Shown here one piece after another: positions 10,183 through 15,828 of a stretch of DNA of 20,002 nt. The DNA comes from a virus. The DNA is taken from the IMG/VR virus record IMGVR_UViG_3300021368_000334, positions 1 through 20,002 of that record. One strand, 5' to 3'. Both the position numbers and the translations under genes were made by a program. Position 1 is the stretch's first letter; each line of letters opens with the position of its first letter. The notes beneath the pieces were generated by a model. That model was not told the origin of the DNA and searched no databases. It saw nothing but the letters and a program-made list of their open reading frames with translations.

Positions 10183-10638
10183 TTATATTAACCTTTTTGC
10201 AAAAACATTTTCTATATGCTCAAACCCAAGACGATCTAACAATTTATCAAAAGGTTTGTGTCGTTTAACGTTTATCATCAAAATAGATGCGCCGTATTCT
10301 TTTAATTTTTCTTCAGCAAATTTAATAAGCTTCCAGCCAGCAAAACCTTTTCTATGTTCTGGCGCTATATAAATTATATCATTCTGTGCAAATATGTGGT
10401 CTTGGTAGTGTAAATTAGGAGCTACCGAAACAACAAAATACCCTATCATTATACCGTCTTCTCGCGCTGTATAAATTTTTAACGCGCCTATACTTTCGTA
10501 TTTTTCATACATATCCCAATTAGGATTAAACTTTATTATATCCTTATTTAACGCTATTTCTTCGTAATGCCTTATAAGCAACGGTATAGCATCCGCTTTA
10601 GCTTGGCTTAATGTTTCTTCTGCGTATACTACCGTCAT
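10183..10638 (-). CDS. GNAT-family N-acetyltransferase-like protein
   Basis: The product has 151 residues. Its ATG overlaps the TGA of the tail tubular B gene (ATGA, 10635-10638), and no clear ribosome binding site is seen, so translation probably depends on coupling. Motif A of the GNAT fold is visible at about 88-110: IIYIAPEHRKGFAGWKLIKF, where the loop RKGFAG would hold the acetyl-CoA pyrophosphate. Before it lie strands IYTAREDGIMIGYFVVSV (55-72), and after it KEYGASILMINV and a C-terminal FDKLLDRLGFEH, both usual for the fold. The substrate is unknown. GNAT-like genes between tail tubular B and the internal proteins recur in podoviruses as I recall, so it may modify a virion or host protein, or serve as a structural relic. 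Family call good, role open. Confidence 0.85.
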   Translation of the reverse strand: MTVVYAEETLSQAKADAIPLLIRHYEEIALNKDIIKFNPNWDMYEKYESIGALKIYTAREDGIMIGYFVVSVAPNLHYQDHIFAQNDIIYIAPEHRKGFAGWKLIKFAEEKLKEYGASILMINVKRHKPFDKLLDRLGFEHIENVFAKRLI

Positions 10639-14885: not shown

Positions 14886-14904
14886 ACTGTCTCTCCTTTA
14901 CAGT
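14886..14904 (-). promoter_or_regulatory. Capsid ribosome binding site displayed in a hairpin loop
   Basis: Immediately before the capsid ATG (14885) the minus strand reads ACTGT, AAAGGAGAG, ACAGT. The two five-base arms are perfectly complementary, so the full Shine-Dalgarno sequence would sit in a nine-base loop. This is the best ribosome binding site of the cluster, and such exposure may raise or control capsid translation. Confidence 0.6.
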
Positions 14905-15015
14905 TTCGATTAAAGTTTGCTGCGCTTGGTTATCCCTTATGGGGCCGTGCTACTGCTTTGGGCAGCTACTCCGCTTGTCTCACAAGCTTGACGTTGTGGG
15001 CCTTTCGGTTATCCA
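14905..15015 (-). promoter_or_regulatory. Structured, GC-rich spacer between scaffold and capsid genes
   Basis: This is the largest non-coding stretch of the window. Minus-strand hairpins visible by eye: GTGG/CCAC enclosing CC-GAAA-GG (overlapping the end of the scaffold gene), GCTTGT-GAG-ACAAGC (six pairs), CTGC-CCAAA-GCAG, and CCC-CATAA-GGG. The octamer GGATAACC occurs twice, at plus-strand 14928-14935 and 15007-15014. There is no T-run after any hairpin, so it is not a standard terminator, and I see no known promoter consensus and no tRNA. It could be a leader RNA element, a processing site, or the site of a promoter for the capsid gene. Confidence 0.5.
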
Positions 15016-15828
15016 CTAGGTAAATTCGCGGAGCCTTAACACCTCTGCGACTACCTTATCTTTATTAGGATGTTTTGCATCCCAATATGGACCTCCCGGC
15101 ACTGTAAGCTCGTCTATTTGACGCTGTGCCTCTTCTGGGGTCATAACTAATTCTGTTGGCTCACCGACAAGCTTATCTTCGCCTATCTGCTCACCTAAAC
15201 TAGCAAACATTTTTACAATTTCTGGAACATCTCCTAGTAATCGCCCATCTGCTAATTCTATTTGATCAAACAATTCCGTACCGCCTAAAAACGTTCTAGC
15301 GGCATTTTGCGCTAATTCTAAACGTTGGTCAAAAGCTTTGCCATATTCTTTTTGCAATTCTTCAATACCAACTTGCCGCGCTTCATCAGCTTGTTTTGTT
15401 CTTAGATCTCTAAAGCCACTTTCTTGCTCCGCTAAGTAGTTAGCCAACTGACTAGCTTGATTTTGTGTCAAACCAGCCTCAAAAGCTCTTTCTCGCAAGT
15501 TATTAGCAACAAGTTCGTTTAAACCTTCAACTTGTGTAAAATCATAACCATCGGCACTTTCTGGCGCGCCTAGCTTTGTAAACACATTTCGCCATTCGTC
15601 AGGCGTAGAATGTTTGCCGGGCAATGCAATTTTGTCAGCGCCAATCATTCTTTGCGCGTGTACATAACTTTTTGCCAAAGTTGCTGGGTCTGTAAAATTA
15701 CGTAAAGATGGCTCACTACGTAAATCTTCTGGTAAACTTTCTAAAAAACTAACTGGTGCCGTTTCTGCTACAGCAACAGCTGGTGCAGCTTCTTGAGATC
15801 CAGCGTCTTGGATTACCTCTTCGCTCAT
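15016..15828 (-). CDS. Capsid assembly scaffolding protein
   Basis: The product has 270 residues, acidic and helical. The diagnostic part is residues about 27-100: FLESLPEDLRSEPSLRNFTD, LAKSYVHAQRMIGADKIALP, then TPDEWRNVFTKLGAPESADG. Residues about 110-190 are long charged helices (Glu, Gln, Ala, Leu), fitting an elongated coiled-coil body. The protein guides prohead assembly and is lost before packaging. AAAGGAA lies six bases before ATG 15828, which also overlaps the stop of the Bbp19-like gene (ATGA). It is followed by the structured spacer and the capsid gene, the usual order. Confidence 0.93.
   Translation of the reverse strand: MSEEVIQDAGSQEAAPAVAVAETAPVSFLESLPEDLRSEPSLRNFTDPATLAKSYVHAQRMIGADKIALPGKHSTPDEWRNVFTKLGAPESADGYDFTQVEGLNELVANNLRERAFEAGLTQNQASQLANYLAEQESGFRDLRTKQADEARQVGIEELQKEYGKAFDQRLELAQNAARTFLGGTELFDQIELADGRLLGDVPEIVKMFASLGEQIGEDKLVGEPTELVMTPEEAQRQIDELTVPGGPYWDAKHPNKDKVVAEVLRLREFT

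Follow-up and report, generated by a model that had tools for sequence, protein, structure and literature searches.

The E. coli ompA 5' UTR is a structured leader of about 130 bases that precedes a gene for a highly abundant structural protein and leaves its Shine-Dalgarno sequence free. Riboswitches and ribosomal-protein leaders are translational cis-regulatory RNAs in which a conserved core is combined with a variable expression platform. The RAT elements of LicT and SacY carry two related internal loops in one hairpin, which is read by a symmetric protein dimer and controls a terminator. In phage T7, the region between the scaffold and capsid genes holds a phage promoter, phi10. Phages of the HTVC010P type, together with their relatives, are considered to be among the most abundant viruses of the sea. 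Structured RNAs of marine phages have been found by comparative genomics, namely manA and wcaG, which occur in T4-like cyanophages and are mostly linked to metabolic genes (Weinberg 2010, PMC2864571).

We analyzed a 20,002-base virus record, hereafter the window, in which the capsid gene is preceded by a leader RNA of an apparently undescribed, deeply conserved, pseudoknotted class. Its nearest functional analogies would be the structured leaders of abundant-protein mRNAs and the translational cis-regulators. Like the ompA 5' UTR, it is about 130 bases long, structured and followed by a free Shine-Dalgarno sequence; unlike it, the capsid leader is pseudoknotted and deeply covarying, its internal loops are near-invariant, and in the window clade it begins at the stop codon of the upstream gene. 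It shares with riboswitches and ribosomal-protein leaders a core with lineage-specific expression parts and, in one clade, a mutually exclusive pairing of a core strand and the ribosome-binding site (RBS), but differs in matching no Rfam model, in its viral capsid target and in the absence of such a platform from the window clade. As in RAT, two related internal loops are present, although here they lie in two separate hairpins and no terminator is involved. The position between podovirus scaffold and capsid genes is that of phi10 in T7, but here it is occupied by a conserved RNA with no sigma-70 promoter match. Like manA and wcaG (PMC2864571), it is a structured RNA of marine phages found by comparison, the difference being that no Rfam model matches it.

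The gap between the scaffold and capsid genes

The late genes of the window lie on the - strand, and their order (connector, small protein, capsid assembly protein, capsid, tail tubular proteins) agrees with that of HTVC010P and Lederberg. Given this shared gene order, and a capsid protein identity of 73-76% to Pelagibacter phages HTVC010P and Lederberg, the window is, on these sequence resemblances, an HTVC010P-type podovirus or a close relative. A gap of 130 bases (14886-15015) separates the scaffold-like ORF from the major capsid ORF, both on the - strand, whereas the other late genes nearby overlap or are at most 45 bases apart. Its GC fraction is 0.50, and that of the RNA core 0.55, against 0.44 in the capsid gene and 0.43 in the scaffold gene. 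The initial annotation had singled out this gap as large for a cluster of mostly overlapping genes, richer in GC than its flanks and free of a T-run, and all three remarks hold; for the last, a scan of the - (coding) strand of the gap for intrinsic terminators (a GC-rich hairpin with a T-run) returned no terminator-like site. The structured part covers 14917-15016, and the remainder (14886-14916) is an A-rich linker that carries the Shine-Dalgarno sequence. The features are listed in Table 1.

Table 1 Features of the capsid leader and its flanking genes in the window
Feature	Position	Strand	Basis
Major capsid protein gene, 286 aa	14025-14885	-	Identity to the major capsid proteins of Lederberg EXVC029P (76%) and HTVC010P (73%)
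Shine-Dalgarno AAGGAG of the capsid gene, outside RNA-core sequestration in the window clade	14893-14898	-	Sequence and complementarity tests
Conserved tail GCGCAGCAA, first GC is the 3' side of P5	14917-14925	-	Nearly invariant alignment columns
P4 hairpin GG-C-CCC-ATAA-GGG-ATAA-CC	14928-14946	-	Alignment scoring of its two helices
Second 4x1 internal loop, AUAA side, opposite C at 14944, mirrored relative to P1	14930-14933	-	Alignment and loop scan
P5 5' side GC, partner GC at 14924-14925, encloses P4	14949-14950	-	Covariation at both pairs
P3 hairpin GCTGC-CCAAA-GCAGT, loop carries the 3' side of the pseudoknot	14952-14966	-	Both-side changes in 4/5 pairs
Pseudoknot 5' side GG, partner CC at 14960-14961	14971-14972	-	100% of scored cells paired
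P2 hairpin GCTTG-TGAGA-CAAGC	14973-14987	-	Both-side changes in 4/5 pairs
P1 hairpin GTGG-ATAA-CC-GAAA-GG-C-CCAC	14996-15016	-	Compensatory changes
First 4x1 internal loop, AUAA side, opposite C at 15000	15009-15012	-	Alignment and unbiased loop scan
Scaffold/capsid assembly protein gene, 270 aa, ends at P1	15016-15828	-	Annotated as capsid assembly protein at the equal position in relatives

Fold, covariation and the twin internal loop

The coding strand of the structured part is predicted to form four hairpins, P1 to P4, together with a pseudoknot of two pairs and, enclosing P4, the short helix P5. In the window, P1 and the scaffold stop codon share one base, the first of P1 and the last of the codon. 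The pseudoknot is made by the two bases after P2, which pair with the first two bases of the P3 loop; its outer pair is seen as G-C, A-U, C-G or G-U, and the other pair is invariant. The fold energy of the coding strand was no better than that of shuffled sequences (z 0.26 for the gap, -0.67 with flanks) and no energy signal was obtained for the + strand; therefore, the hairpins could not be judged from the window alone.

Eighty relatives were fetched via the capsid protein, and in those with enough upstream sequence the gap is mostly 101-145 bases long, with a minority at 154-312. Fifty-three leaders, extracted by a pattern requiring two G-R-Y-A-A motifs, were aligned with MAFFT without structural information, and a hand-written structure that included the pseudoknot was scored. 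The pattern itself thus accounts for part of the loop conservation in this alignment, but it placed no requirement on the stems, P2, P3 or the pseudoknot. Paired cells amounted to 97.8% (87.5% in shuffles), 18 of the 25 pairs were changed on both sides (8.3), double-changed cells numbered 127 (25.4) and the covariation score was 0.349 (0.142), counts that do not equal independent events since the leaders are mutually related. When the partners were slid by 1-3 columns, about 40% of the cells at most were paired, with no more than 8 double-changed pairs and a score of 0.075 or less. Unaided, RNAalifold predicts P1, P2, P3 and the inner part of P4. Among the pairs, G.U/U.G combinations (n=41) far exceed A.C/C.A ones (n=8), which argues that it is the mRNA (coding) strand that has been selected as a folded RNA.

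The initial annotation had counted at least four hairpins on the coding strand and had made its case depend on the conservation of their pairs in relatives. Comparison shows P1-P4 to be real, with pairs kept by compensatory change beyond the controls, and the hairpin that it had rated best, GCTTGT-GAG-ACAAGC, is P2. That the gap contains a cis-acting RNA is virtually certain. Two further pairings were tried and rejected: a hairpin ACUGU..ACAGU enclosing the RBS of the window, which relatives do not keep, and the pairing of a conserved GGAGUAG segment with capsid codons 2-4, which does not covary. Contigs L011 and L016 both carry GGATTAG, yet their capsid starts differ.

The hallmark of the RNA is a 4x1 internal loop, AYAA/C in the window clade and AYWA/C or GUAG/U elsewhere. 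P1 and P4 each hold AYAA/C, with the four-base strand on the 5' side in P1 and on the 3' side in P4; by their sequences, the two hairpins show the same motif in mirror order. A strict twin-motif search returned ordered twins in ct3Et533, VC8, CKB-S2, L213, L077, L153 and L212 (at most 1% in shuffles), with motif variants that had been picked after seeing the sequences and with a second stem in L212 that is probably spurious. Since this search misses P4 of the window, which has an outer stem of two pairs only, 270 leaders were instead scanned without bias for 4x1 loops of any sequence in strong hairpins. In the P1 orientation, the commonest loops were AUAA/C, AUUA/C, ACAA/C, ACUA/C and GUAG/U, with AYWA/C first and GUAG/U next, and the AYWA/C series was again the commonest in the P4 orientation. 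On the reverse complement, the commonest loops were the complements of the coding-strand ones. The loop mostly begins with A facing C or with G facing U, and both combinations would be wobble pairs of a similar kind. The loop motif AYWA/C, GUAG/U may be a new protein- or ligand-binding module. Many leaders of contigs L342-L404 seem to have a further AYAA-type hairpin upstream of P1 (e.g., GGGACAAGCGTAAGCCCC in L375), and some may carry three copies of the motif.

Distribution of the leader and its link to the capsid gene

A covariance model of the leader (R1) matched the window and seven longer records of the same clade once each, with no second copy elsewhere in these eight records. Significant matches lie directly before the capsid gene in ct3Et533 (E 5e-7, capsid identity 51%), in Methylophilales phage MEP301 (E 3e-6, 33%) and in contig L257 (E 1e-6), the capsid of which is 40% identical to that of ct3Et533. 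The leader has thus persisted in lineages whose capsids share as little as about one third identity (33-51% for the significant matches). The twin motif, or half of it, is also found in Vibrio phages CKB-S2 and VC8, Alteromonas phage ZP6 and Pelagibacter phages HTVC010P and Baldr; these are motif assignments made by reading and pattern inspection, as distinct from R1 matches. One R1 match in HTVC028P, inside a coding gene and at 13.5 bits, was taken as chance.

The position of the element was tested without recourse to capsid sequence, on contigs gathered by the DNA pattern of P4. Of 23 full-model matches, 22 end 20-35 nt upstream of a same-strand capsid match. The remaining one, in L168, has a larger distance because a group I intron interrupts its capsid gene. 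This intron (L168 2268-2493, - strand; Rfam RF00028, 73 bits) is inserted after about codon 37. Throughout a large podovirus lineage, the element is found at a fixed position directly upstream of one gene family, as is characteristic of a cis-regulatory leader, and together with the compensatory changes this supports the earlier proposal of a functional RNA tied to capsid expression. Some related capsid genes (those of vB_EcoM_APEC, Piluca, Hodr and Acinetobacter MD-2021a) lack the element and follow a gap of only 11-39 nt, too little to contain it; in principle, the element is therefore dispensable.

With Rfam release 15, searched at several thresholds, no match at the gathering score was obtained in the window or at the loci of 39 relatives, in agreement with the initial annotation, which had recognized no known family; the sole sub-threshold match (16.3 versus 50 bits) was taken as chance. 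A literature search that covered few subscription journals returned no description of a capsid-leader RNA in this group.

Some variation was seen at this locus. A subclade (L024, L046, L047, L069, L288, L292 and L293) has a longer leader, of which about 158 bases are matched by the model, with an apparent extra long hairpin before P4. Pelagiphage contigs carry an ORF of about 60 aa between the capsid assembly and capsid genes (L082 2990-3166, and the same place in L083-L089 and L091). In HTVC010P, this ORF runs at its 3' end into P1 of the HTVC010P form of the RNA. Both ct8d5349 and L219 also seem to have small ORFs of this kind.

Ribosome-binding site, promoters and possible mode of action

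In a second clade, which comprises L342-L404 and has capsids about 40% identical to that of ct3Et533, the Shine-Dalgarno region is complementary to the leader (41/54 at p<0.05, mean z -3.7), and the complementary stretch is mostly the loop-bearing strand of P1 or P4. In 49 of 53 leaders, the leader pairs better with its own RBS than with those of other members. The pairing occurs in the variants GATTAGCC/GGCTAATC and GGTCAACC/GGTTGACC, which, as far as sequences tell, are compensatory changes. Complementarity to the RBS was also found in two VC8-type contigs, L410 (0/300 shuffles) and L407 (p 0.02). In the second clade, the loop strand of P1 or P4 would alternatively pair with the RBS, so that formation of P1/P4 would open the RBS and their unfolding would close it. 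A translational switch in which P1/P4 and RBS sequestration exclude each other appears to be the simplest account of this clade, and the complementarity of loop strand and RBS makes the switch hypothesis directly testable there.

Such mutual exclusion of the core and RBS sequestration is present in the second clade and absent from the window clade, where RBS complementarity is at chance level (2/70 at p<0.05). In most members of the window clade, P1 starts at the scaffold stop or within a few bases of it, with a one-base overlap in 26/68. Because the RBS is free, an effect on mRNA stability, processing or ribosome loading is more likely in this clade. For the window itself, only the conserved core is claimed, and we infer its mode of action and binding factor.

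A scan for sigma-70 promoter types found none in the gap of the window; the best upstream site had 7/12 matches, a score reached by 64% of shuffles. The promoter that had been offered as an explanation of the gap is thus unsupported in this phage, but some distant relatives have one upstream. Immediately upstream of the RNA, ZP6 has a consensus promoter with 12/12 matches and VC8 one with 11/12, and therefore the RNA is a 5' leader in these two phages; by reading alone, an upstream promoter is also apparent in L407 and L409. A processing site had been suggested as well. The RNase III type is unlikely because all helices are short, the longest conserved ones having 5-6 pairs versus about 20 in such a site; processing in a wider sense is weighed below. 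In the VC8 record, a rho-independent terminator is annotated upstream of the capsid gene (L223 1306-1357), and a near-consensus promoter, TTGACT-17-TATAAT, lies near it within an inverted repeat.

We favor, as the reasonably probable explanation, a new class of cis-acting capsid-mRNA leader whose twin loops are probably the binding site of a factor. The mirrored loops of P1 and P4 may together form one two-fold binding site, the binder of which would most likely be a protein, either the phage capsid or scaffold protein or a host factor. Occupancy or folding of this site would set the amount of capsid protein made per mRNA, relative to the scaffold made upstream, and the leader offers a testable handle on the balance of scaffold and capsid synthesis in HTVC010P-type phages. 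A broader version, in which tailed phages widely use the RNA as a sensor of capsid supply, with the twin loops binding an assembly protein or another signal and the fold gating the RBS, is put forward as a less likely possibility; if true, capsid stoichiometry would be controlled at the RNA level in a way that is new for this group.

Other explanations were weighed against this factor-bound leader. A role mainly as a stabiliser or processing site, with a folded 5' end that protects the capsid mRNA or marks a cut in the late transcript, is possible but on balance doubtful: capsid protein is needed in large amounts, the RNA of VC8 and ZP6 begins shortly after a consensus promoter, and the window clade has a free RBS and a P1 next to the scaffold stop, but a simple stabiliser needs neither near-invariant internal loops nor a pseudoknot, typical RNase III sites require longer helices than the 2-6 pairs seen here, and the RBS complementarity of the second clade points to translation. 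We regard as rather unlikely a feedback operator at which capsid or scaffold protein, bound to the twin loops, represses capsid synthesis. Mirrored twin loops would suit a dimeric or oligomeric protein and the association with the capsid gene is strict; however, a more stable P1/P4 in the second clade should make the RBS accessible, whereas simple repression would do the reverse, and at least about 30 bases separate the loops of the window, at which binding is predicted, from the Shine-Dalgarno sequence downstream. It is improbable that the leader is a put-like antiterminator acting on RNA polymerase for the capsid-to-tail transcript, since the window element lies inside the late gene cluster and not at its start, and since the RBS complementarity in relatives fits translation, even though such an antiterminator would fit a structured RNA that precedes a long late operon and that, in some relatives, immediately follows a promoter. 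That the gap is a DNA element (promoter, packaging or recombination site) or a set of chance hairpins is scarcely credible given the compensatory changes with a coding-strand G.U excess, the covarying pseudoknot and the absence of a promoter match in the gap, for all that the single-sequence fold energy is not significant.

Elsewhere among the late genes of the window, an ORF at 10183-10638 (- strand) resembles a GNAT-type acetyltransferase, a putative assignment made by reading its sequence.
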